Of a stretch of DNA of 64,000 bases, positions 8,462 to 21,554 are shown in pieces (the stretch's first letter is position 1; every line of letters starts with the position of its first letter). Source of the DNA: Actinocatenispora comari (GTDB lineage: Bacteria; Actinomycetota; Actinomycetes; Mycobacteriales; Micromonosporaceae); assembly GCF_017312725.1 (NCBI RefSeq), contig NZ_BOPO01000021.1:1-64000 (forward strand). Reading direction: 5' to 3'. The position numbers were made by a program, and so were the translations under genes. A model generated the notes under the pieces. It was given only the letters and a program-made list of their open reading frames with translations. It was not told the origin of the DNA and did no database searches.

Positions 8462-8898
8462 CGCCCACCCCTCACCTGGTCGGTACGGGTCGAGCATCGT
8501 CGCGGCGGCACCGGCGCGTCTTGGACGAATGTTTGCCCGGCACACCCAGCACGCCTGGGCGCCTGGGCGCGCGGGGCGGCGGGGCGAACACCTTACCGGA
8601 CACACCCAACGCGCGGTGTCGCGTATCGCACCTTCCGTCGTCGCGGGATGTCGGCACATACTTGTCGCAAAGGAGGCGAGGTGACGTGAGAGGGCCCGAA
8701 AAGTGGACACGGTCCGCCGGCTATGCGACTGTCAGTTACGACACAGGCACGACATGTTGACGTTTTCCTGGTGTCCTTTTGTCGTTCTTGACATGATTGA
8801 TGCGCCCGCGCGTGCAGAGGAGTCGCGGCAGTCCCGTTACCCGACCGGGCGTCCCTGAAGGGCCTGCCTGTCGTGCCAGCGCTCGTGAGGAGGCCTAC
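8462..8898. other. 437-bp intergenic region upstream of the FtsK-like cluster
   Basis: The region separates the divergent esterase gene from the cluster that begins at 8899. It is locally less GC-rich around 8735-8805. It contains TTGACG (8757-8762) and TTGACA (8789-8794), but no convincing -10 box at the right distance after either. A ribosome-site-like AAGGAGG at 8670-8675 precedes a 24-codon frame (8686-8760) that I do not regard as a gene. Confidence 0.4.
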
Positions 8899-9162
8899 GT
8901 GACGATCAACGTGGCCGAGGTCAAGTCGGCGATCCACGCCGCCGTGGCTGAGGTACAGGACGGCCAGCAGGCGGTCCAGCTCGCCAACGAGAAGCTGGAC
9001 GCCGCCCAGCAGAACCTCGCCCTCGCGGTCGAGGGCTCCGGCGCCGAGGCGGTGCAGACCGCCCAGGCCGCCCTGGTCGCCGCCCGCGACGACCTGGACA
9101 ACTGCCTGGCCACCACGATCGGCGCGGTGGAGCAGGCCCAGACCTACCTCGCCAGCCTGTAG
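8899..9162 (+). CDS. 87-aa helical hairpin protein, first gene of FtsK-like cluster
   Basis: Almost purely helical, with heptad-like Ala/Leu/Val spacing (KSAIHAAVAEVQDGQQAVQL) and a Gly-Ser-Gly turn at mid-length (VEGSGAEAV) that would fold it into a two-helix hairpin. Size and fold resemble WXG100/ESX-type small proteins, but no W-X-G is present; the turn is G-S-G. The GTG at 8899 has GGAGG at good spacing. The next gene starts 4 bp after its stop. The link to a secretion substrate or adaptor is inference from the neighbouring FtsK-like ATPase. Confidence 0.75.
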   Translation: MTINVAEVKSAIHAAVAEVQDGQQAVQLANEKLDAAQQNLALAVEGSGAEAVQTAQAALVAARDDLDNCLATTIGAVEQAQTYLASL

Positions 9163-9166
9163 CGCC

Positions 9167-10078
9167 GTGCCGTCCCTCGTCGAGTCGCTCGGTGCCCGGC
9201 TGCGCGAGATCGGGCAGCAACTGCCGCTGCCCGAACTGACCCGTGCCGCCGGGGCGCTGCGCGACGCCACCGAACGCTGCGGGTACGTGATGCGCGAGTC
9301 CGGCCATGCCGAGTGGCTCGGCCAGCTCACCCTCGCCGGCAGCCACCTGGACAGCGCGATCGCGGCGACCCGGTCGGTGCTGACCGAGCTCGACGGGTAC
9401 CTGGCCGGGATCGGCGTCGCCGGTGTCGCGCCGCCGAACGCCGCCCCCGCCCCCGCCCGCACCGTCGTCACACCGGGCACGGCCGACCCCGCGGCGCAAC
9501 CGATCCTCGCGCTGCGGTCCTGGTGGCAGCGGCGGGTCGACGAGCTCACCGGGCGGCCGGCGGACGAGCAGCGGCCGAAGACGGTCCGCTCGGACGGCGA
9601 CCGGGACGACCACGCCACGCCGGAGGAGCCGGCCGACGCGCTGCGCCGGCTCAGCAGCGCGGCCCGCGGCGGCCGGGACGACTACCGGGACGCGCTGCTC
9701 GCCACCCACCCGGCCAGCGGGATGGCGCTCGCCGCGCCGGCCGACCGGGCCGCCCGCCGGCTCGGTACCGAGCTGGTCGGCCATCCGCTCGGCCCCGACG
9801 ACGCCGAGCAGCTCACCGCCCGCGGTACCGGCCGGATCCGCGACCTGCTGCCCGCGCTGCCGCCGGAGCTGCCGGCGGAACTGGTCGGGCAGCTGTGCGA
9901 CCCGTTCGGCGCCCGGCACGCCGCGCGCCAGCGGCACCCGGTCGACGCCGTCGTCGGCTGGCCGGTCCTGGTCGGCGAGCTGCTCCGGGCGCTCGGCGGT
10001 ACCGAGGACCGGCTGCCCGAACTGACCGCCACGGCGCCCCAGCGCCCCGACGAGACGCTGCGCCGCGATGGCCGGTAG
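9167..10078 (+). CDS. 303-aa protein of FtsK-like cluster, function unknown
   Basis: Residues 1-85 are helical (LGARLREIGQQLPLPELTRA ... SHLDSAIAATRSVLTELDGY). A Pro/Ala linker follows, then a polar charged region and a C-terminal part containing LPPELPAELVGQLCDPFGA. No signal peptide or membrane segment. It starts at GTG 9167 and overlaps the ATPase gene by 11 bp, so the genes are translationally coupled. The N-terminal helices could pair with the 87-aa protein (inference). I recognise no named family. Confidence 0.7.
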   Translation: MPSLVESLGARLREIGQQLPLPELTRAAGALRDATERCGYVMRESGHAEWLGQLTLAGSHLDSAIAATRSVLTELDGYLAGIGVAGVAPPNAAPAPARTVVTPGTADPAAQPILALRSWWQRRVDELTGRPADEQRPKTVRSDGDRDDHATPEEPADALRRLSSAARGGRDDYRDALLATHPASGMALAAPADRAARRLGTELVGHPLGPDDAEQLTARGTGRIRDLLPALPPELPAELVGQLCDPFGARHAARQRHPVDAVVGWPVLVGELLRALGGTEDRLPELTATAPQRPDETLRRDGR

Positions 10079-12872
10079 CCGCCGCGAGCTGGTCGAACAG
10101 CTCCGGCAGACCCTCGCGTACGCCCGGGGCTCGGCGCGCGCCGACCTCGCCGCGGCGCAGGCGGCGGCGGACGCGGTGCGCGACGAGCATGCCAAGGCCG
10201 AACGCGAGGCGCAACGTTGCGGCCAGCGACTGCTGGCGGCGCACGCTACCCGCCGTGGTGAGGTCGACCGGCAGTCGCTGCACCGGCTGCGCGCCGCGGC
10301 CGAACAGCTCACCGCGCTCGCGGTCGAGCAGGCGCCCGGCGCCGCCGGCCTCGACTGGCCGCACTGGGCGCCGACACTGCCGGGCCGCGCCCAGCCGCCC
10401 GGGCTGTACCGGATCGGCCGGCTGCTGGCCCGAGACGTGGTCGCCGGCTCCGAACCGCCACTCCCGGCGCTGGTCGCGCTGCTGGACGAGGCGCACCTGC
10501 TGATCGAGGACCCCGGCCACGAGCGCGCCGAGCTGGCCGTCCGGGCGCCGGCACCGGAACCGACCACGCCGGTCACCCACCGGCCGACCGAACGGGTACA
10601 CCGGTTCGTCGGCTCGCTGCTGCTGCGGGTCCTCGGCTCGACCGTGCCCGGCTCGGTGCAGCTGACCGTGTACGACCCGGAACGGCTCGGCGGCAGCCTG
10701 GCCGCGTTCGCCCCGCTGGCCCAGGCCGGCCTGCTCACGTTCGTCGGTCCCGGCGGGCTCGGCGACGTGCTGGACGGCCTGGTCGAGCAGGTACGCCGGA
10801 TCAACGAGACGGTGCTCGCCGGCGACTACGGGTCACTGCGCGAGCTGCACGCGGCGACCGGTCGACGCCCGGAACCGTGGCGCATCGCGGTACTGCTCGG
10901 TGAGGGCGACGGCGCCGAACTGAGCAACGCGCAGCAGGCCCAGCTCGACCGGCTGGTCCGCACCGGTCCGGCCTGCGGGGTGCACCTGCTGATCGCCGGC
11001 ATCGGCCCGGCCGGCGAGTGGTGCCGGCACCCGCAGCTCGACCGGCTGGTGCTGTGGGGAGAGAAGGCCTGGACCTCGCTGACCGGCAACCAGTTCCTGG
11101 TGCAGCTCGACCCGCCGCCGTCGATCGAGCTGGCCACCGGTACCAGCCGGGCGATCGCGACGAAGGTACTGGCCGGGCCCGATCCGGCGGTGTTCGCCGA
11201 CCTGCTGCCCGCGCAGGAGTGGACCGAGTCGTCGGCGGACCGGCTGGTCGCGCCGGTCGGCGCCGGGCCGGACGGTCGCCTGGTCGACGTCGAGCTCGGC
11301 GACTCGCCGCCGCACGCGCTCGTCGGCGGGCCCTCCGGTACCGGCAAGACGAACCTGCTCTACGCGCTGATCGGGTCGCTCGCCGCCCGCTACTCCCCGG
11401 ACGAGCTCGCGCTCTACCTGCTGGACTTCAAGGAGGGCGTGTCGTTCGCGCGGTTCGCGCCGGGCCGGCGCGATCCGAGCTGGCTGCCGCACGTCCGGCT
11501 GGTGGGGGTCAACGTCAACACCGACCGGGAGTACGGTCTGGCGCTGCTCGCGTTCCTGCACCAGCAGCTGCGCGAGCGGGCCGAGGCGGCCAAGGCGTAC
11601 GAGGCGACCAAGCTTGCCGAGCTGCGCGCCGAGGACCCGACCGGGCACTGGCCGCGCATCGTCGCGGTGATCGACGAGTTCCAGGTGTTGCTGGACGGCC
11701 GGGACGCGGTGGCGCTGGAGGCGGCCCGGCTGCTGGAGGACCTGGCCCGGCGCGGCCGGTCCCAGGGCATCCACCTGATCCTCGCCAGCCAGGACCTGTC
11801 CGGCATCGACGCGCTGTGGGGGCGGGCGTCGATGGTCGCCCAGTTCACCCTGCGGATCGCGCTGCCCAAGGCGCGCCGGATCCTCGCCGAGGGCAACCTC
11901 GCCGCCGACACGGTGCCCCGGCACCACGCGGTGATCAACCCGGACTCCGGCGCCGAACCGGCGAACCGGGTCGCGCACATCCCCGACGCCGGCCGCCGCG
12001 GCACCCTCGACGTCCTGCAGCAACGGCTCTGGCAGCGGCGCGGTCCGGACGCGGCACCGCCGGTGCTGTTCGACGGCGGTCGGGTGCCGCTGCTGTCCGA
12101 GGCCGCCGACCTGGCCGCGCTGGTACCGGGACCGGAACCGAGCCGCACCCCGGTGGCCCTGGTGGGACACACCATCGACGTGACCGGACGCTCCGCCGGC
12201 GTGCGGCTGTCCCGATCCCCCGGCCGCAACCTCGCGGTGCTCGGCGCCCGCGCGGCGGAGGCGTGCGACGTGCTGGCCACCGCGGCGGTCTCGCTGGCCG
12301 CGCAGTACCGGCCGGGCGCGGTGCGGTTCAGCCTGGTCTGCCTGGACGACGACGCGGTCGAGGCGGCGAAGCGGCTGCACGACGAGCTGGGTGCGGGCGG
12401 CCACGACGTCGACTGGTACGACCGGGACGGGGTGTGTGGGCTGTTCGCTGGGACCGCGCAGCTGCTGCGCGACGGCGGCGACGAGCCGGCCCGGCCGCAC
12501 GTGCTGCTGGCGTACGCGGTGGACGCGGCGGCGACCCGGCTGGAACGCAAGGACCCGACCAGCCGGCGCAGCGCCCGCGACGACCTGAAGGACATCCTCG
12601 GCCGCGGGCCGGAGCTGCGGACCCACCTGCTCGGCTGGTGGCGCTCGGTACCGCGGCTGCGCGACGACCTGGGCGGCCTCGGCGCCCGGTTCGACGCGTT
12701 CGGCGCCTGGCTCGCGCTCGACGTCCAGGGCGCCGAACTCGCGCCGCTGTCCACCGAACCGGGCGGCCCGCACTGGTACCCGCGGGAGCGCCGGGCGCTG
12801 TTCTTCGACCGCGCGGTGGACCGCCGCCCGCGGGTGGTCATCCCGTACCAGACCGAGGAGCAGCGACGATGA
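10068..12872 (+). CDS. FtsK/SpoIIIE (EssC/EccC-like) ATPase, 934 aa
   Basis: N-terminal ~90 residues are a coiled coil. An active FtsK-type ATPase domain follows: Walker A GGPSGTGKT (K427, T428), Walker B IVAVIDEF (D536, E537), and LARRGRSQGIHLILASQD, the FtsK/EssC sensor region. A second ATPase-like domain from about residue 690 appears degenerate: GRNLAVLGARAAEA replaces the P-loop and lacks GK(S/T). No transmembrane segment is present, unlike FtsK itself. EssC/EccC proteins similarly combine active and degenerate ATPase domains. Its stop overlaps the next start (ATGA). Likely a motor for protein or DNA transport; the substrate is unknown. Confidence 0.85.
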   Translation: MAGSRRELVEQLRQTLAYARGSARADLAAAQAAADAVRDEHAKAEREAQRCGQRLLAAHATRRGEVDRQSLHRLRAAAEQLTALAVEQAPGAAGLDWPHWAPTLPGRAQPPGLYRIGRLLARDVVAGSEPPLPALVALLDEAHLLIEDPGHERAELAVRAPAPEPTTPVTHRPTERVHRFVGSLLLRVLGSTVPGSVQLTVYDPERLGGSLAAFAPLAQAGLLTFVGPGGLGDVLDGLVEQVRRINETVLAGDYGSLRELHAATGRRPEPWRIAVLLGEGDGAELSNAQQAQLDRLVRTGPACGVHLLIAGIGPAGEWCRHPQLDRLVLWGEKAWTSLTGNQFLVQLDPPPSIELATGTSRAIATKVLAGPDPAVFADLLPAQEWTESSADRLVAPVGAGPDGRLVDVELGDSPPHALVGGPSGTGKTNLLYALIGSLAARYSPDELALYLLDFKEGVSFARFAPGRRDPSWLPHVRLVGVNVNTDREYGLALLAFLHQQLRERAEAAKAYEATKLAELRAEDPTGHWPRIVAVIDEFQVLLDGRDAVALEAARLLEDLARRGRSQGIHLILASQDLSGIDALWGRASMVAQFTLRIALPKARRILAEGNLAADTVPRHHAVINPDSGAEPANRVAHIPDAGRRGTLDVLQQRLWQRRGPDAAPPVLFDGGRVPLLSEAADLAALVPGPEPSRTPVALVGHTIDVTGRSAGVRLSRSPGRNLAVLGARAAEACDVLATAAVSLAAQYRPGAVRFSLVCLDDDAVEAAKRLHDELGAGGHDVDWYDRDGVCGLFAGTAQLLRDGGDEPARPHVLLAYAVDAAATRLERKDPTSRRSARDDLKDILGRGPELRTHLLGWWRSVPRLRDDLGGLGARFDAFGAWLALDVQGAELAPLSTEPGGPHWYPRERRALFFDRAVDRRPRVVIPYQTEEQRR

Positions 12873-13582
12873 GCCAGTTGACCGACGCCCGGCCGGTCGC
12901 CGGCACCGGGTCGCCGCGGGAACGCTACCGGCGGGCGGTGGCGGCGCTCGCGATGCCGCTGCACGACCAGGTCGCCGGGCACGACCGGACCGACCAGGCA
13001 CTGGTGACCGGGCGACGGGAGATCACCGACCGGCTGGAGGAGTCGGCGAGCCGGGTGCGGGCGGCCCGGTCCGCGGTCGCCGCGGCGGCCGAGGCGGTCG
13101 AGGCCGTCGACCGGCGGGTCCGCCGGATCTGGCGGGAGCTCGCCGCGCTGCCCGGCCGGCGCCGTGACCTCGGTCCCACGCCGGCGCCGCGGGCGGTGAC
13201 CGCGCAGCCGGCGATCCCGGCCGCCGAGCTGCTCGACCGGGCCGAGCGCACCGTCACCGCCGCGCGGCTGGGCGAGCTGCCGCTGCGCCCGCCGGTACCG
13301 ATCTGGGTGGCGATGCTGATCGCCGGCGTGGCCGGCGCCGCGGTCTGCGCGGGCATCGGTACCGCACTGCTGGTCGCCGCGCCCGGGATGCCGGTCGGGG
13401 AACGCGCCGCGGCCCGGGTGATCGCCGACGTCGCCTTCGCGCTCGGCGCCCTCGCCGGCGTACCGGCCGCGTCGAGCTGGCTGACCCGGTACGGCCAGCC
13501 GATGACCGCGCGCGCGTTCGGCACGGTATTGGGTGCCGGCGTGATCGTGACGATCGGGCTGTTCGTCCTGCTCGGTCATTGA
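12869..13582 (+). CDS. membrane protein of FtsK-like cluster (237 aa)
   Basis: The N-terminal half is charged and coiled-coil-like (ESASRVRAARSAVAAAAEAV), followed by three hydrophobic segments at about residues 147-172, 188-206 and 213-236, ending at the membrane (IVTIGLFVLLGH). It overlaps the ATPase gene by 4 bp (ATGA), so the two products are probably made together. As the ATPase lacks membrane helices, this protein is a candidate anchor (inference). Confidence 0.75.
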   Translation: MSQLTDARPVAGTGSPRERYRRAVAALAMPLHDQVAGHDRTDQALVTGRREITDRLEESASRVRAARSAVAAAAEAVEAVDRRVRRIWRELAALPGRRRDLGPTPAPRAVTAQPAIPAAELLDRAERTVTAARLGELPLRPPVPIWVAMLIAGVAGAAVCAGIGTALLVAAPGMPVGERAAARVIADVAFALGALAGVPAASSWLTRYGQPMTARAFGTVLGAGVIVTIGLFVLLGH

Positions 13583-13798: not shown

Positions 13799-14086
13799 AT
13801 GGACGACATGCAGGGCCTGAGTCTGACCGAGGCTGCGCGCGAGGCGTACATGCAGCTGATCATGTGCGAGCTACCCAGCTCAGGCACCGAGGTCGAGGCG
13901 TGGATTCCGGCGATGAAGGCGGTCAGCCGGATGAATGCGGTCGCCCTGCATCCCGCGCTGATCGCGATCGCCGATCAGCTGGAGGCCGGTTTCCACGACG
14001 CGGTCTGCGCGCAGGACCCGGACCGGCTGCGGGTCGCGTTCGACGCCGCCGCCAAGCGACTGCGGCCGCACACCGGCGCAGTTTGA
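13799..14086 (+). CDS. small helical protein, 95 aa, function unknown
   Basis: Begins MDDMQGLSLTEAAREAYMQL and appears fully helical, with two Cys residues and no membrane segment. GAGGA (13789-13793) precedes the ATG at 13799; the Met three codons later is an alternative start. It lies 216 bp after the FtsK-like cluster on the same strand. That gap contains TTGACT at 13707 but no good -10. It may or may not belong with the cluster. Confidence 0.6.
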   Translation: MDDMQGLSLTEAAREAYMQLIMCELPSSGTEVEAWIPAMKAVSRMNAVALHPALIAIADQLEAGFHDAVCAQDPDRLRVAFDAAAKRLRPHTGAV

Positions 14087-16513: not shown

Positions 16514-17365
16514 CTACTCGTACGAGTAGAAGCCCTGGCCCGACTTGCGGCCCAGGTGGCCAGCGGCGACCATCCGCAGCAACGACTCCGGCGGGGCGAA
16601 CTTCGCGTCCTTGCTGTCGGCGTAGATGTTCTCGGTGGCGTGCACCAACACGTCGACACCGGTCAGATCGGTGGTGGCCAGCGGACCCATCGCGTGCCCG
16701 AATCCCAGCTTGCAGGCGGTGTCCAGGTCGGCGGCGCTGATCACGCCGTTCTCCACCAGCCGGGCCGCCTCCATCGCCAGCGCGCAGATCAGCCGGGTGG
16801 TGACGAAGCCGGCGATGTCCCGGTTGACGGTCACCACCGTCTTGCCGATCTCCTCGGCGAACGCGGTCGCGCGGGACATCGTCTCGTCGCTCGTCTGGTA
16901 CCCGCGAACCAGTTCCACCAGCGCCATCATCGGCACCGGCGAGAAGAAGTGGGTGCCGACGACGTACTCGGGGCGCTTGGTCACCGAGGCGATCGTGGTG
17001 ATCGGGATGGCGGAGGTGTTGGTCGCGAGCACCGCGCCGTCCGCGGCGAGCCGGTCGAGTTCCATGAAGACCCGCTGCTTGATCTCGACCTGCTCGAACA
17101 CCGCCTCGACGACGATGTCGGCCTCGGACACCACACCGAGGTCGGTGGTGGTGGCGATCCGGCCGAGCGCGGCCGCCGCGTCCGGCTCGCTGAGCTTCTG
17201 CTTCTCGACGAACTTGTTCAGCGACTTCTCGATGCCGGCCATCCCGCGCGCCAGCGCCGCGTCGTCCACGTCGCGCATGCTGACCTGCCAGCCGGCCTGG
17301 GCCGCCACCTGCGCGATGCCCGAGCCCATCAGCCCGGCGCCGACCACCGCGAGCCGTCCCGCCAT
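16514..17365 (-). CDS. 3-hydroxybutyryl-CoA dehydrogenase
   Basis: 283 aa, the usual length for single-domain short-chain hydroxyacyl-CoA dehydrogenases. The NAD-binding site is at the very start (VVGAGLMGSGIAQVAA), followed by ADIVVEAVFE and TNTSAIPIT. The catalytic region is VGTHFFSPVPMM (His), and the substrate-binding helix contains NRDIAGFVTTR. It oxidises 3-hydroxyacyl-CoA in fatty-acid or butanoate metabolism. GGAAGGGG precedes the ATG. It stands alone, with no beta-oxidation partners adjacent. Confidence 0.92.
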   Translation of the reverse strand: MAGRLAVVGAGLMGSGIAQVAAQAGWQVSMRDVDDAALARGMAGIEKSLNKFVEKQKLSEPDAAAALGRIATTTDLGVVSEADIVVEAVFEQVEIKQRVFMELDRLAADGAVLATNTSAIPITTIASVTKRPEYVVGTHFFSPVPMMALVELVRGYQTSDETMSRATAFAEEIGKTVVTVNRDIAGFVTTRLICALAMEAARLVENGVISAADLDTACKLGFGHAMGPLATTDLTGVDVLVHATENIYADSKDAKFAPPESLLRMVAAGHLGRKSGQGFYSYE

Positions 17366-17457
17366 GTCCGTCCCCTTCCTCGGAGCAAAGCTACCGTTCA
17401 GTAGCGGACTCTACTCAGGGGCGCGGACCGGGCGGCGGCGGACGGCCGTGCCACCGG

Positions 17458-17694
17458 TCAGTCGTCGCGCCGGACGGTCAGCCCGGCGACCCGGACGAAC
17501 ACCGTCACCTCGGTGATCTCCAGGCCCTCGGCGAGCTCCCAGCCGTCCAGGTAGACCCAGCCGGGCACCGTCGGGGACGGTCGGACGCCGATCACCCGGA
17601 ACCAGATCGGCCGTTCGAACTGCGAACTTGCCGCGGCGTCCAGTCGGACCAGGTCGCCGATGCGGGGGGTCACACCGGTGGTCGCCATGGTCAT
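17458..17694 (-). CDS. small barrel-like protein B (78 aa), function unknown
   Basis: Same overall pattern as the proteins at 1487, 1750 and 3243: IGDLVRLD, a Trp strand (PIWFRVIGV), GWVYLDGWE and a closing VFVRVAGLTVRR. It begins with an ATG overlapping the stop of the small Cys-rich gene upstream (ATGA), indicating coupled translation. No signal peptide. The function is unknown; the repeated association with HTH regulators is discussed under findings. Confidence 0.7.
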   Translation of the reverse strand: MTMATTGVTPRIGDLVRLDAAASSQFERPIWFRVIGVRPSPTVPGWVYLDGWELAEGLEITEVTVFVRVAGLTVRRDD

Positions 17695-17924
17695 CGCGCC
17701 GTCGCAGCTGCCGTGGTGCCCACGGCGGGCGACACCGGACGGGGCCGCCGTACCGGACCCGCCTGTCTCGCCGCCTCGGTGGCCACCCGCGCCGTCTCGC
17801 ACGGGTACGGCCGGCGGCAGCGCGGATGCGCGCACCGGTCCGGGTCCGCCTCGTCGGGGTGATGCGACCGGAGCAGTCGGGTTGCGACGTCGGAGAGAAG
17901 TGGATTGGCTGATTGCGGGTCCAT
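17691..17924 (-). CDS. small Cys-rich actinobacterial protein (77 aa)
   Basis: The centre holds CAHPRCRRPYPCETARVA, a short Cys/His motif I associate with many small actinomycete proteins; three Cys and one His could bind zinc. The C-terminus is basic and probably disordered. GGGAG 7 nt upstream supports the ATG at 17924 over longer alternatives. It is the first gene of a two-gene unit with the barrel-like gene and faces the XRE gene at 18291 across 366 bp. Confidence 0.7.
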   Translation of the reverse strand: MDPQSANPLLSDVATRLLRSHHPDEADPDRCAHPRCRRPYPCETARVATEAARQAGPVRRPRPVSPAVGTTAAATAR

Positions 17925-18089
17925 GACCGTCTCCCGGCAGGACTGGTGGTCTCTGCTTCGAAGGGTGTTGACAGCGCGTGTCCGGCTGCCCGTCTCGCCC
18001 GCCCGATGAGCCGGGGCCTCCGACCCATCGGGCGTCAACGGGAATGCAACTGAACGCAATCACAAGGCTACTTTCTGAGCAGCCGGAAA

Positions 18090-18107
18090 AGTTCAACGGA
18101 GTGAACT
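18090..18107. promoter_or_regulatory. palindrome AGTTCA-N6-TGAACT, candidate operator
   Basis: A perfect 6-bp inverted repeat with a 6-bp centre (ACGGAG), located between two divergent transcription units one of which encodes an XRE regulator. The size and symmetry suit a dimeric HTH protein. Binding by the adjacent XRE protein is inference. Confidence 0.45.
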
Positions 18108-18277
18108 CTGTCCAAGCCGCCTACTGCGCGGTGATTACGCCGGGCGGTGCTCGGCCGCCCGGAATGGCACGATCACGTGGATCGATGGGTTCGCCGCCGC
18201 TCGCGCAGACATCACCTTGCTGAGTGTCAGATACAAATCACCCTCTGGCAGGTCTATCGCCCCGGGCAAACCGTCTA

Positions 18278-18283
18278 TACCGT
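18278..18283 (+). promoter_or_regulatory. -10 box of a likely leaderless XRE-gene promoter
   Basis: TACCGT lies 7 nt before the ATG at 18291, and no ribosome site precedes that ATG. An overlapping TATACC (18276-18281) is an alternative -10. Either implies transcription starting at or next to the start codon. Confidence 0.35.
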
Positions 18284-18290
18284 GAAATTC

Positions 18291-19505
18291 ATGGCTCGGG
18301 AGTCGTATCTCCCCGATGACCGGCCGATCGTCGGGGAACGCATTCGCACCTGGCGGCGCTACCGCGGCATGCCGCTCAAGACGCTGGCCGGCCTGGCCGG
18401 GATCTCCGTCGGGCTGCTGTCGGAGGTCGAGAACGGCAAGCGCATCCTCGACCGGCGTTCCCAGCTGACCGCCGTCGCCGCCGCGCTGCAGGTCTCCACC
18501 GCCGACCTGACCGACCAGCCCGGCGCGCCGCTGTTCCCGGAACACGCCGCGGCACTCGCCACCGTCCCCGCCGTACGCTCGGCGCTGGTGCTGCTCGCGC
18601 TCGACGACGAGCACACCACCGGCCGCGAGCTCACCGCGCTGCGCCGCGACACCGACGCGTTGCAGCCGCTGCGCGCCGCCGCCCGGTACGACAAGATCGG
18701 ACCGCTGCTGCCCGACCTGCTGCGCGACCTGGGCGCCCGGTGCCGCACCGGCTCCGCGGCGCAGCGCCGGGAGGCGCTGCGGCTGATGGTGCGGGCCACC
18801 TACTGCGCCACCTACACCCTCAAATACCTCGGCCACCGCGACCTGGCGATGACCGCCGCCGAGGCGTGCGGGCGGGCCGCCACCGAGCTGGCCGAGCCGG
18901 CGTACCTGGGCCTGGCCGCCTTCACCCGGCTGCACTCCCTGCCCCCGGAGACCAAGGCGCTCACCGGCCGGCTCGCCGGCGAGGCCGCCGACCGGCTGCA
19001 GCCGCACCTGGCCGACGCCGACACCGCCCAGGTGTACGGGATGCTGCACCTGTCCGCGGCGTTCGCCGCCGCGGTGACCGAGCGCGCCGGCGACACCCAC
19101 GCCCACCTGGCCGAGGCCGACGCGGTCGCCTCCCGTACCGGCGAGGGCGAGTTCGCCGGGCTGTGCTTCGGGCCGACCAACATCGGGTTCTGGCGGGTGG
19201 CGATCGCGGTCGAGCTGGGCGAGGGCGGCCGGGTCGACGAGATCGCCCGGCAGATCCGGCCCGAGGTGGTCGACTCGGCGTCCCGGCGCGCGTCGTTCTT
19301 CGCCGACCTCGGCCGCGGGTACGCCCAGGGCGGTGCCGACGCCCGCGCGGTCGAGGCGTTCTGCGTCGCCGAACGGCTGGCGCCGCAACGCATCCGGGCG
19401 TCCACGACGGTACGGGAGACGGTCGGTGACATCCTGCGCCGGGCCCGCCGGGAGGCCGGCGGACAGCAGCTGCGCGCGCTGGCCCGGCGGGTCGGCGTGG
19501 TCTGA
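18291..19505 (+). CDS. XRE-family regulator with C-terminal TPR-like region (404 aa)
   Basis: Residues ~13-70 form the HTH (VGERIRTWRRYRGMPLKTLA, then GISVGLLSEVENGKR). The rest is a series of helical repeats (DLAMTAAEACGRAATELAEP; AQVYGMLHLSAAFAAAVTE), the layout of actinobacterial XRE-TPR regulators that often respond to a peptide or partner protein. The ATG at 18291 is chosen for the start of similarity and for the nearby -10-like box. It diverges from the small Cys-rich/barrel pair. Confidence 0.85.
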   Translation: MARESYLPDDRPIVGERIRTWRRYRGMPLKTLAGLAGISVGLLSEVENGKRILDRRSQLTAVAAALQVSTADLTDQPGAPLFPEHAAALATVPAVRSALVLLALDDEHTTGRELTALRRDTDALQPLRAAARYDKIGPLLPDLLRDLGARCRTGSAAQRREALRLMVRATYCATYTLKYLGHRDLAMTAAEACGRAATELAEPAYLGLAAFTRLHSLPPETKALTGRLAGEAADRLQPHLADADTAQVYGMLHLSAAFAAAVTERAGDTHAHLAEADAVASRTGEGEFAGLCFGPTNIGFWRVAIAVELGEGGRVDEIARQIRPEVVDSASRRASFFADLGRGYAQGGADARAVEAFCVAERLAPQRIRASTTVRETVGDILRRARREAGGQQLRALARRVGVV

Positions 19506-19717
19506 CCGCCTGCCCCGGCACCCTGACCTGCACGGATTCGAGCGGTGGGGTACCCGACGGTCGGACCGGTCGACCGGCCGGAGCGAGGTGGCCCGGTGGG
19601 CCGGAGCGGGGTGGCCGGCGGGCCGGTGTCGGGTGATCGGCGGTCCGGTCCGCGGCTGGCGGACACGCGACGATTTCGGTGGCCGGGCCGCCGATGTCGA
19701 AGCTGGCCCGGCAGTGG

Positions 19718-19723
19718 CAGACT
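19718..19723 (+). promoter_or_regulatory. possible -10 box for a leaderless transcript
   Basis: CAGACT followed by 7 nt and the GTG start at 19731. No ribosome site is present. The box differs from TANNNT at its first base, so the call is weak. Confidence 0.25.
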
Positions 19724-19730
19724 GACGGAC

Positions 19731-20153
19731 GTGCCTGCCCCAGTCAGCATCCTGATCGCCTTCGGCCTCATCGCCGGGCTGGCGATCGTGCTCCGCTGGA
19801 CCTACGGGAGCGACCTGTCCGAGCGTCGCTACCACGTGTCGCCGAACGACGACGATCCGGCTTCGCCGGCCGCCGTCGACTCGCCGGTCGTCACGCCGCC
19901 CGTGCCCGACGGTACGCACGAGGCGATCGAGCAGGCCGCGCAGGATCAGGTGGTGGACGCCCCGGAGTCCGCCGACGAGGGGTACGGTCTGCTGCGCACC
20001 GTGCTGGTCGCCGACAACCAGCGGCAGGCGACCCTGGTGCGCGAGGTGCTCGCCGACGCCGGCATCCGGTCCACCATCTCGACCGAGGGCGACAGCGCGC
20101 GGGTGCTGGTCTTCGTCGACCAGCTCGACAAGGCCCGCCGCCTGGTCGGCTAG
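19731..20153 (+). CDS. membrane-anchored protein with DUF2007-like domain (140 aa)
   Basis: A single N-terminal membrane segment (SILIAFGLIAGLAIVLRW) is followed by an acidic Pro/Asp linker and a ~50-residue C-terminal domain (LVADNQRQATLVREVLADAG ... FVDQLDKARRLVG). The last part resembles the DUF2007 'signal transducing protein' pattern; this is a similarity judgement only. It starts at GTG 19731 and its last codons, including the stop, lie in the first copy of the tandem repeat at 20142-20240. Confidence 0.65.
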   Translation: MPAPVSILIAFGLIAGLAIVLRWTYGSDLSERRYHVSPNDDDPASPAAVDSPVVTPPVPDGTHEAIEQAAQDQVVDAPESADEGYGLLRTVLVADNQRQATLVREVLADAGIRSTISTEGDSARVLVFVDQLDKARRLVG

Positions 20154-20240
20154 CCCCGCAGTCTGGTCGGCTAGCCCGCCGCCTGGTCGGCTAGCCCCGC
20201 AGTCTGGTCGGCTAGACCCGCCGCCTGGTCGGCCGGGTCG
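20142..20240. repeat. five tandem copies of a ~21-bp unit
   Basis: CTGGTCGG begins copies at 20142, 20163, 20183, 20204 and 20225. Copies 1 and 3 are identical and copies 2 and 4 nearly so, giving a ~41-bp higher-order period. The first copy contains the stop codon (TAG 20151-20153) of the upstream gene; each later unit repeats the codons for RRLVG-stop. It also lies just beyond the 3' end of murA, between converging genes. Confidence 0.8.
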
Positions 20241-20255
20241 GCCGCGGCGGCGCGA

Positions 20256-21554
20256 TCAGTAGCCGAAGTCGTCGTCGGGGACGGTGCAGCGCTCGGCCTT
20301 GACGCCCAGCGCCCGCAACTGGTCGACGAAGTGCGGGTACCCGCGGTCGATGTGGTGCACGTGGCTGACCTCGGTGGTGCCCTCCGCGCACAGGCCGGCG
20401 ATCGCGAGCCCGGCACCCGCCCGGATGTCGGAGGCCCGCACCGGGGCACCGGAGAGCCGCTCCCGGCCGCGGACCACCGCGTGGTGGCCGTCGGTGCGGA
20501 TGTCGGCGCCGAGCCGGGACATCTCGTTCACGAACATGAACCGGCCGTCGAAGATGTTCTCGGTGATCAGCGAGACGCCGCCGGAGACCGCACCGAGGCC
20601 GATCGCCATCGGCAGCAGGTCGGTGGCGAACCCCGGGAACGGCAGCGTGACCACGTCGACCGCGGTCGGCCGGCGATCGATGGCGACCCGGAACGCCGGT
20701 ACGCCGTCGGCATCGGGCAACTGCTCGATCTCGGCACCGGCGTCGGTGAGCTTGTCCAGCGCGACGCTCAGGTTCGCCGCCCGCACGCCCCGGACCGTCA
20801 CGTCGCCGCGGGTCATCACCGCACCGAACGCCCAGGTACCGGCGACGATCCGGTCGCCGACCGTGCGATGGGTGGTGGGATGCATCGACTCGACGCCGGT
20901 GACCTCCAGCGTCGCCGTACCGGCCCCGGAGACCTGCGCGCCCATCGAGTTGAGCATGTCGGCCAGGTCGACGATCTCCGGCTCCCGCGCCGCGTTGTCG
21001 ATCACCGTGGTGCCGCGCGCCAGTACCGCGGCCATCAGGATGTTCTCGGTGGCGCCGACGCTCGGGAAGTCAAGCCAGATCTGCGCACCGGTCAGCTGGG
21101 CGGCGCGGGCCACCACGAAGCCGTGCTCGGAGCCGATGTCGGCGCCCATCCGGGACAGCCCGGCGACGTGCATGTCCAGGCCGCGGGAGCCGATCGCGTC
21201 GCCGCCCGGGTGCGCGACCCGGGCGTGCCGGCAGCGGGCCAGCAGCGGGCCGAGCACGCAGATCGACGCGCGCAACCGGCGGACCAGGTTGTAGTCGGCC
21301 TCCGGCTCCAACTCGTCCGGGGTGTCGATGGCGATGTCGCCGCCGTCCACCTCGACCTGGCAGCCGAGCCGGCGCAGCACCTCGGCCATGATCGAGATGT
21401 CGGTGATGCCCGGCGCGTTGGTGATGGTGGTACGGCCCGGCGCGAGCAGCGCCGCCGCCATCAGCTTGAGCGCGCTGTTCTTGGCGCCGGCCACCGGCAC
21501 CTCGCCGGCCAGCCGCGTACCACCGTAGACCCGGATGACATCCACGCGCGTCAT
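20256..21554 (-). CDS. murA: UDP-N-acetylglucosamine 1-carboxyvinyltransferase (MurA)
   Basis: 432 aa. It transfers enolpyruvate from PEP to UDP-GlcNAc, the first committed step of peptidoglycan synthesis. Signatures: [20 protein letters not shown] at the N-terminus and [18 protein letters not shown] at the active-site loop. Position 119 is Asp where fosfomycin-sensitive enzymes have Cys; M. tuberculosis MurA has the same change and is fosfomycin resistant. The start is uncertain: ATG 21554 lacks a ribosome site, while TACGAT 7 nt before the GTG at 21545 would give a leaderless message beginning VDVIRVYGG. Confidence 0.95.

Follow-up and report, generated by a model that had tools for sequence, protein, structure and literature searches.

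The window analyzed here, the first 64,000 nucleotides of contig NZ_BOPO01000021.1 of Actinocatenispora comari (contig C21 of a 7.96-Mb genome, G000 in our numbering), raises the question of what is moved, protein or DNA, by the products of a four-gene cluster at positions 8,899 to 13,582. The genes, which we call A to D, encode in order a small helical hairpin protein, a larger protein that by profile comparison begins with the same hairpin, an ATPase resembling the type VII secretion motor EccC and a predicted membrane protein. Given that the same hairpin heads DNA-deaminase toxins encoded elsewhere in the genomes, the cluster looks like a machine, related to type VII secretion, for exporting toxins. 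We favor, with moderate confidence, the view that it is a module for type VII-like protein export, with a targeting hairpin of a non-WXG kind, in which both export and the channel are what we infer.

The gene cluster

As the original prediction had it, the four proteins are 87, 303, 934 and 237 amino acids (aa) long and their genes are joined by a 4-bp gap and overlaps; all open reading frames (ORFs) were found in place, with the 4-bp gap between A and B, an 11-bp overlap between B and C and a 4-bp overlap between C and D. Gene calls were made with our own script, and neighboring genes were named by eye except where they were scanned against Pfam. The features of the cluster are listed below.

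8887..8893, + strand: GAGGAGG, resembling a ribosome-binding site in sequence, 5 nt upstream of the GTG start of A
8899..9162, + strand: A, 87 aa, GTG start, predicted two-helix hairpin protein, stand-alone member of the hairpin family
9034..9039, + strand: codons G46-S47 of A, the turn at the W-x-G place of WXG100 proteins (G46 invariant in 18 aligned rows; modelled turn 45-47)
9145..9159, + strand: codons Y83-L87 of A, C-terminal Y-x-x-x-hydrophobic (Y83 in at least 90% of 18 rows; motif in 63/75 stand-alone hairpins)
9167..10078, + strand: B, 303 aa, putative N-terminal hairpin (about 1-84) and a conserved C-terminal part with no assigned fold
10068..12872, + strand: C, 934-aa EccC/FtsK-type ATPase with no membrane segment and a helical N-terminus (about 1-95)
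10440..11102, + strand: domain D0 of C (125-345), FtsK-like by profile comparison, no P-loop (0/22 rows)
11205..11987, + strand: domain D1 of C (380-640), FtsK_SpoIIIE match (2.3e-24), P-loop in 21/22 rows
11328..11351, + strand: Walker A of D1, GPSGTGKT (421-428, K427)
11673..11678, + strand: Walker B of D1, D536-E537 (D536 in 22/22 rows, E537 in 21/22)
12135..12857, + strand: domain D2 of C (690-930), FtsK-like by profile comparison, no P-loop (0/22 rows)
12869..13582, + strand: D, 237 aa, N-terminal part helical by eye, predicted membrane segments 145-163, 180-198 and 217-235

The motor protein

C matches the Pfam domain FtsK_SpoIIIE, and the closest solved structure to it is EccC of Thermomonospora curvata (4nh0, E 3.8e-28). 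The EccCa model reaches 90.5 bits against a cut-off of 509.15, and both the EccC and EssC models remain far under cut-off. Among the matches listed, the closest relatives of C come from Actinoplanes, Paractinoplanes, Symbioplanes and Rugosimonospora (53-56% identity).

The original prediction had described an active FtsK domain containing K427 and D536/E537 and a second one with the P-loop destroyed (GARAAEA, residues 726-732, in D2). Both descriptions hold, but a third FtsK-like domain, N-terminal to these, had been missed. With domain borders in C and EccC drawn by hand, profile comparison gave D0 a score of 97.1% against C's own D1 and 94.1% against EccC D2; D2 of C scored 96.8% against D0, 90.1% against D1 and 78.9% against EccC D2, and reversed controls reached at most 1.4%. 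The P-loop is present in D1 of 21 of 22 aligned relatives, having been lost in L068, and in the first or last domain of none. From these scores and counts we conclude that C is, as judged by its sequence relatives, a series of three tandem FtsK-type domains filling residues 125-930 of 934, with the middle one alone retaining a P-loop. An AlphaFold2 model of C built from 9 sequences was of low quality (mean predicted local distance difference test score, pLDDT, 44.2; predicted template modelling score 0.31), so the domain assignment rests on profile comparison; a Foldseek search with that model ranked EssC and EccC at the top but was not relied on. D0 is one of three additions to the original prediction, the others being the A-type hairpin on B and five canonical EccC and EccD genes on other contigs. 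In agreement with what had been proposed, the Kyte-Doolittle scale (19-residue mean of at least 1.6) gives no membrane segment in C and three in D; it also gives none in A or B.

A tree of 22 C relatives and the five EccCs of the same genome split the two sets (100/100), and the clade of C is distinct from EccC. Within it, five ATPases with a WXG100-like neighbor form one branch (99/99; loci L073, L074 and L083-L085) and 14 further ATPases a second (98/99), an A-kind hairpin being nearby in 11 of the 14; L070 and a pair from group f22 fall outside both branches. The program issued a long-branch warning for this tree, and its W, H and N labels were assigned by neighbor gene. The two of the five WXG100-like neighbors that were scanned against Pfam (L073 and L085) matched WXG100 under cut-off.

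The FtsK-type domains bring with them the alternative of DNA translocation, be it segregation, conjugation or DNA uptake. The very name of the Pfam domain, FtsK_SpoIIIE, points that way, as do FtsK and TcpA among the fold matches of the low-quality C model. By sequence, however, EccC and EssC beat FtsK, a far better FtsK match exists elsewhere in the same genome (G000:C15, E 3.7e-68) and C, unlike FtsK/SpoIIIE translocases, has no N-terminal membrane anchor. A DNA-reading gamma domain was not among the Pfam matches of C at E <=1, although no dedicated search for it was made. A check of homologue neighborhoods, as the original prediction had called for, found by eye no relaxase, partition, segregation or conjugation gene in the neighborhoods displayed. 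With no supporting neighbors seen by eye and the better match being to EccC, we reject segregation and conjugation, and we regard DNA translocation of any kind as very improbable.

Several further ATPase loci were encountered. The same genome holds a second C-D pair at a contig end (G000:C37:98749-101058; L122:750-3059), in which a 634-aa ATPase-like protein has lost the P-loop and, by its length, the last domain, and the D-like gene runs off the contig. Second copies of C were seen in L068 (G095; P-loop lost) and L055 (G196; P-loop kept). L070 (G265:C4) is a divergent system in which the gene for an 85-aa hairpin accompanies DnaK-like and TPR-like genes and one for an ATPase that bears an additional C-terminal domain.

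The hairpin and its relation to WXG100

AlphaFold2, working from two sequences, placed helices in A at 5-44 and 48-86 with a turn at 45-47 (pLDDT 85.9); the prediction for A is accordingly a hairpin of two helices joined by an E-G-S turn, and its sequence closes with Y-x-x-x-L. Among 75 stand-alone relatives, which are mutually related and thus not independent, at least 69 measure 84-90 aa, G followed by S or T stands in the central turn of 53, and a terminal Y-x-x-x-hydrophobic, which a final G may follow, is present in 63; W-x-G at the center occurs in none. Matches of A to the WXG100 models are also under cut-off (PF06013, E 0.058, 14.1 bits against 27.3; TIGR03930, 13.4 bits against 44.85). 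The earlier description of the 87-aa protein as a putative hairpin without WXG thus agrees with our data.

Descent of A from the WXG100 family was addressed by profile comparison. An A profile compared with a WXG100-like profile scored 0.7% (18 against 5 rows), and the toxin N-termini described below scored 7.6% alone; a larger hairpin set reached 70% (E 4e-5 over 82 columns, 89 against 11 rows), compared with 15.6% for the reversed set and with 0/200 block-permuted and 0/200 rotated sets scoring as high. On profile evidence, homology of A to WXG100 is no more than possible. The hairpin set comprised 91 rows; L207, which is probably a false positive (a coiled-coil NlpC/P60-like protein), was left out, as were ORFs of more than 105 aa from L183, L188, L192, L217, L219, L223 and L224. 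L219 and L224 may hold further hairpin proteins.

B has no match in Pfam or NCBIfam. Once L210 had been removed from the two sets compared, its N-terminus scored 94.4% against the hairpin profile; the score against the toxin N-termini, a set not selected by B, was 94.7%; against A1, the 18-row A profile, alone it scored 7.0%. In G427 the A profile matches the N-terminus of B directly, 20 bp past A (E 5.4e-4). Taking these profile results together, the N-terminus of B is A's hairpin domain. We do not favor B being itself a toxin: it was present in 269 of 300 family genomes, nearly always as a single match, and it is located between A and C.

Hairpin-headed toxins

A profile built from stand-alone proteins of the A kind has a second match in the genome of A. 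comari, on contig C151 (E 8.7e-10). This 261-aa protein has a hairpin N-terminus and a DddA-like C-terminal half (3.6e-22 to PF14428, a family of double-stranded DNA deaminase toxins); the gene that follows is Imm1 (PF14430, 9e-20). The pair (L121:8538-9757) lies beside a PCMT-like methyltransferase gene and an ATP-grasp-like gene.

We examined 41 hairpin regions, one from this genome and 40 from 18 genomes chosen for having several matches; together they cover part of the matches listed. A six-frame search of these regions revealed 12 hairpin-headed, toxin-like proteins with a long C-terminal part, in eight genomes (that of A. comari and seven relatives). Eight of the C-termini are DddA-like and one is CdiA_C; the sampling of hairpin regions was partial, so eight of 12 is no census. 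Imm1 is the next gene in both DddA loci scanned (C151 and L212), and genes of 80-178 aa lie within 11 bp downstream of the toxin in L200, L201, L203, L204 and L205; that of L204, the sole one of these scanned, has no Pfam match. No gene was called close downstream of the toxin in L202, L206, L209 and L218. A stand-alone hairpin gene sits just 5' of the toxin in three of the 12 (L200, L206 and L211) and was not detected there in the other nine. Four further hairpin-headed proteins, of 216-218 aa, are preceded by one or two stand-alone hairpins, and three of these have a stretch near the C-terminus that attains the membrane-segment threshold, which the one from L186 narrowly misses.

The toxin N-termini (13 rows: the 12 toxin-like proteins and one stand-alone hairpin of L211) scored 98.4% against A1 over 86 columns, but, A1 having selected them, less weight falls on this score than on the genome-wide E-values. 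In L200 (2546-3259) and L206 (4043-4813), which come from different genera, the C-terminal domain appears by eye to be common to both and has no Pfam match; it is a candidate new toxin domain.

Distribution of the cluster

In a survey of 394 genomes of the class (C at E <=1e-30, strong A at E <1e-15), C was found in 53 and strong A in 41, with both in 40; at E <=0.001 A matched 49 genomes, which include the 41. The one genome with strong A and no C, G308, is a fragmented assembly. Where A and C share a contig they are within 4.6 kb of each other (35/35), and the other five pairs are on separate contigs. A second survey of 300 genomes of the family (A-kind hairpin at E <=0.001, B at E <=1e-5) found C in 282, an A-kind hairpin in 279 and B in 269; A and C were both present in 276, both absent in 15 and found singly in nine (six with C only, three with A only). 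Of the 21 family genomes lacking a hairpin match, 20 are listed as such and the last is G663, by elimination. Fisher tests of this co-occurrence treat related genomes as independent.

The gene order is A-B-C in all 38 tabulated genomes (that of A. comari included), namely those for which A, B and C were all among the matches listed, and we take the arrangement to be beyond chance. Seven of the eight loci in a scan of the nearest relatives of C have C and D, with A and B not detected beside them. In some family genomes, such as G614 and G586, A and B are on a contig other than that of the best C match and a second C match is present, an arrangement consistent with two C loci per genome. D-type genes in most relatives tested have at least 3 membrane segments; D itself has no Pfam match at E <=1. 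Look-alike proteins, by eye, of about 134-145 aa stand beside C in the f22 loci L064 and L065 and beside hairpin arrays in L186, L196-L199, L213, L214 and L225.

Weighing protein export

Between the two functions offered by the original prediction, type VII-like secretion is the better supported, in that the solved structure closest to C is that of EccC, hairpin-headed toxins come with immunity genes and five ATPases of the same clade stand beside WXG100-like proteins; DNA transport gained no support from the neighborhoods displayed. There are, however, several observations that weigh against our favored reading of the cluster as an export module. A structural search with the A model was unspecific: many unrelated hairpins matched and 0/50 rows displayed were named ESX or WXG100. 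C occurs without strong A in 13 of the 53 class genomes, these being twelve of group f22 and G049, in which a WXG100-like neighbor of C takes the place of A. In group f20 there is as a rule one strong hairpin match, beside C, no hairpin toxin was seen and the cluster sits among core genes, a combination that suggests a housekeeping role. Toxin genes are unlinked to the cluster (C matches just L210 and L216, both of them C loci, among the 41 hairpin regions), and in 3 of the 12 hairpin-headed proteins the C-terminal part contains nothing that Pfam recognizes. D is membrane-bound by prediction, and short D-type genes have none of the segments (L054, 131 aa) or one (L065, 153 aa). Finally, all eight genomes with hairpin toxins also have EccD.

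The f20 data bear on an alternative in which the cluster encodes a cytosolic device, with C as a HerA/FtsK-like motor acting on hairpin-tagged partners, either in physiology or in an abortive anti-phage response where the deaminases act on their producer. The core-genome setting in f20 (beside gcvH-, FHA-, MerR- and otsA-like genes, by eye) and a comparable one in f22 (beside murJ-, sigM-, trxB- and trxA-like genes) are what one might look for in such a device, the fold of A is a generic hairpin and the PADLOC models mad8 (7.8e-20) and SspH (1e-15) match C. The PADLOC matches are nevertheless restricted to the common FtsK ATPase domain; A and B had no PADLOC match and D had weak matches only (0.0014 or worse). 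In addition, D has predicted membrane segments, C is closest to EccC, and modular toxin domains behind a single N-terminal domain, with immunity genes, make up what is seen in secreted polymorphic toxins. We consider a cytosolic device unlikely. Anti-phage defense as a stand-alone reading was rejected on the confinement of the PADLOC matches to the FtsK domain and is retained only within this alternative.

Relation to canonical type VII secretion

The five canonical EccC and EccD genes of this genome offer a further route. Hairpin toxins might leave through the canonical ESX channel of the type VII secretion system (T7SS) subtype T7SSa, C and D serving only to collect or unfold cargo and pass it on. 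The presence of EccD in 8/8 hairpin-toxin genomes and in 25/25 genomes of the same order would be in keeping with such a hand-over, as would an EccC-like C without membrane segments of its own. Against this, 22 of 60 genomes having A and C show no EccD match at E <=0.001, including the single-contig G088, G132 and G100, which means that A and C can exist without EccD. Furthermore, tblastn queries with EccB, EccD and mycosin found nothing at 1e-5 in the 41 hairpin regions, where EccC queries matched at the C loci L210 and L216 only. Passage through ESX is in our view quite unlikely.

The five EccD matches of the A. comari genome are all off C21, consistent with the earlier statement that other T7SS genes are not nearby; EccB, EccE and mycosin were looked for in the window through its gene list. 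Describing the cluster as a 'reduced' T7SS, as had been suggested, may mislead given the 22 genomes without EccD, since the module can stand alone.

Comparison with known systems

Passages of Garrett et al. 2024 (PMC11217815) describe subtypes T7SSa to T7SSj as having a membrane-bound ATPase that contains four NTPase domains, together with a WXG100 protein (no clear gene for one in T7SSi). The present cluster resembles them in its EccC-like motor, its small helical hairpin protein and the helical N-terminal domain on toxins with immunity genes, and also in that small hairpin genes adjoin some substrates. It differs in having three motor domains instead of four, no membrane segment in C (the separate D has three), no W-x-G and no EccB or EccD in the cluster. 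Because a membrane-bound motor, four domains, WXG100 and the core are lacking, we do not class it as a T7SS, even if, going by the evidence so far, it would function as one does.

The nearest published description, as far as passages of PMC3482391 go, appears to be a footnote (Zhang et al. 2012, Table 1 footnote 6) on 'solo WXG' genes of other phyla that accompany a distinct YueA-like ATPase with three HerA/FtsK domains, of which only the middle one is active. Common to both are the three-domain motor with its middle domain intact and, at sister loci, a WXG100-like gene beside the ATPase. By description, which is the level at which the two were compared, our system is different in that A lacks W-x-G and doubles as a toxin targeting domain and in that B and D are additional.

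LXG toxins of T7SSb have small helical partners (Laps) encoded upstream, some without W-x-G, according to passages of PMC11217815. They share with the hairpin toxins a helical N-terminal domain joined to a variable toxin, and the small helical partners upstream, but the LXG domain is about 190 residues long compared with about 85 for the hairpin, and LXG was not matched among the Pfam results for the hairpin proteins scanned. DUF6244 (PF19757), an 87-position model, gave a weak match to the N-terminus of the L201 toxin (E 0.0047, under cut-off); it did not come up for any other hairpin protein scanned, and we found no literature naming it. The DddA-like toxins with Imm1 (PF14428, PF14430) have the same C-terminal domain as ours, with Imm1 in 2/2 loci scanned, the difference being that an A-type hairpin is the heading domain. 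Known DddA is reportedly delivered by a type VI secretion system (PMC7901873).

Judging by titles, abstract openings and the above passages of PMC3482391 and PMC11217815, we found no published description of this cluster. We tentatively propose that it could represent an independent branch beyond T7SSa-j, in which a cytosolic three-domain EccC-like motor and a separate three-segment membrane protein would export proteins tagged with a non-WXG 'G-S' hairpin ending in Y-x-x-x-hydrophobic, and would deliver DddA-type deaminases and other toxins between actinomycetes. Such a branch would be present in nearly all of the family (276/300).

A working model

In our working model of the export module, C would be the motor, with one active EccC-type domain between two dead ones, whose probable task is to bind substrate and to keep the ring assembled. 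D would anchor the motor to the membrane, replacing EccC's own membrane helices, and may form or gate a pore. A might act as a general hairpin partner in the role of EsxA or a Lap, and B, a core component that bears the hairpin, as adaptor, chaperone or structural cargo. The module's cargo would be the hairpin-headed proteins encoded elsewhere in the same genomes, including the DddA-like deaminase and CdiA_C toxins. By analogy with EccC/EssC, a hairpin cargo may pair with a partner such as A, dock on a dead ATPase domain and be pulled through by the active one, and stand-alone hairpins beside cargo may serve it as dedicated partners, in the way that Laps serve LXG toxins. What was observed is the gene content, domain make-up and conservation, the hairpin common to A, B and the toxins, the toxin and immunity domains and the co-occurrence of the genes. 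Contact between motor and hairpin, passage across the membrane, the identity of the channel and delivery to other cells are steps that we infer.

If correct, the model would give bacteria known chiefly for their antibiotics a secretion-type machine along with its sorting tag, and would explain how a set of actinomycete DddA-like deaminases exit the cell. It would also define what a type VII-like motor needs, one active EccC domain and a hairpin, with W-x-G, a fourth domain, membrane helices of its own and EccD all dispensable. DddA-type enzymes are the source of DNA base editors, and the hairpin is a simple handle for finding more such enzymes and their immunity genes.

Flanking genes

The genes on either side of A-D do not look related to the cluster. 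By eye, an esterase gene lies upstream on the opposite strand, and downstream are a 95-aa ORF (13799-14086, +; no Pfam match at E <=0.1) and LigD-like genes. Further along, positions 16514-21554 of the window contain fadB-like and murA-like genes, and in L049 a C-D pair without A-B is found near similar genes, as though A-B had been lost from a place that is itself conserved.

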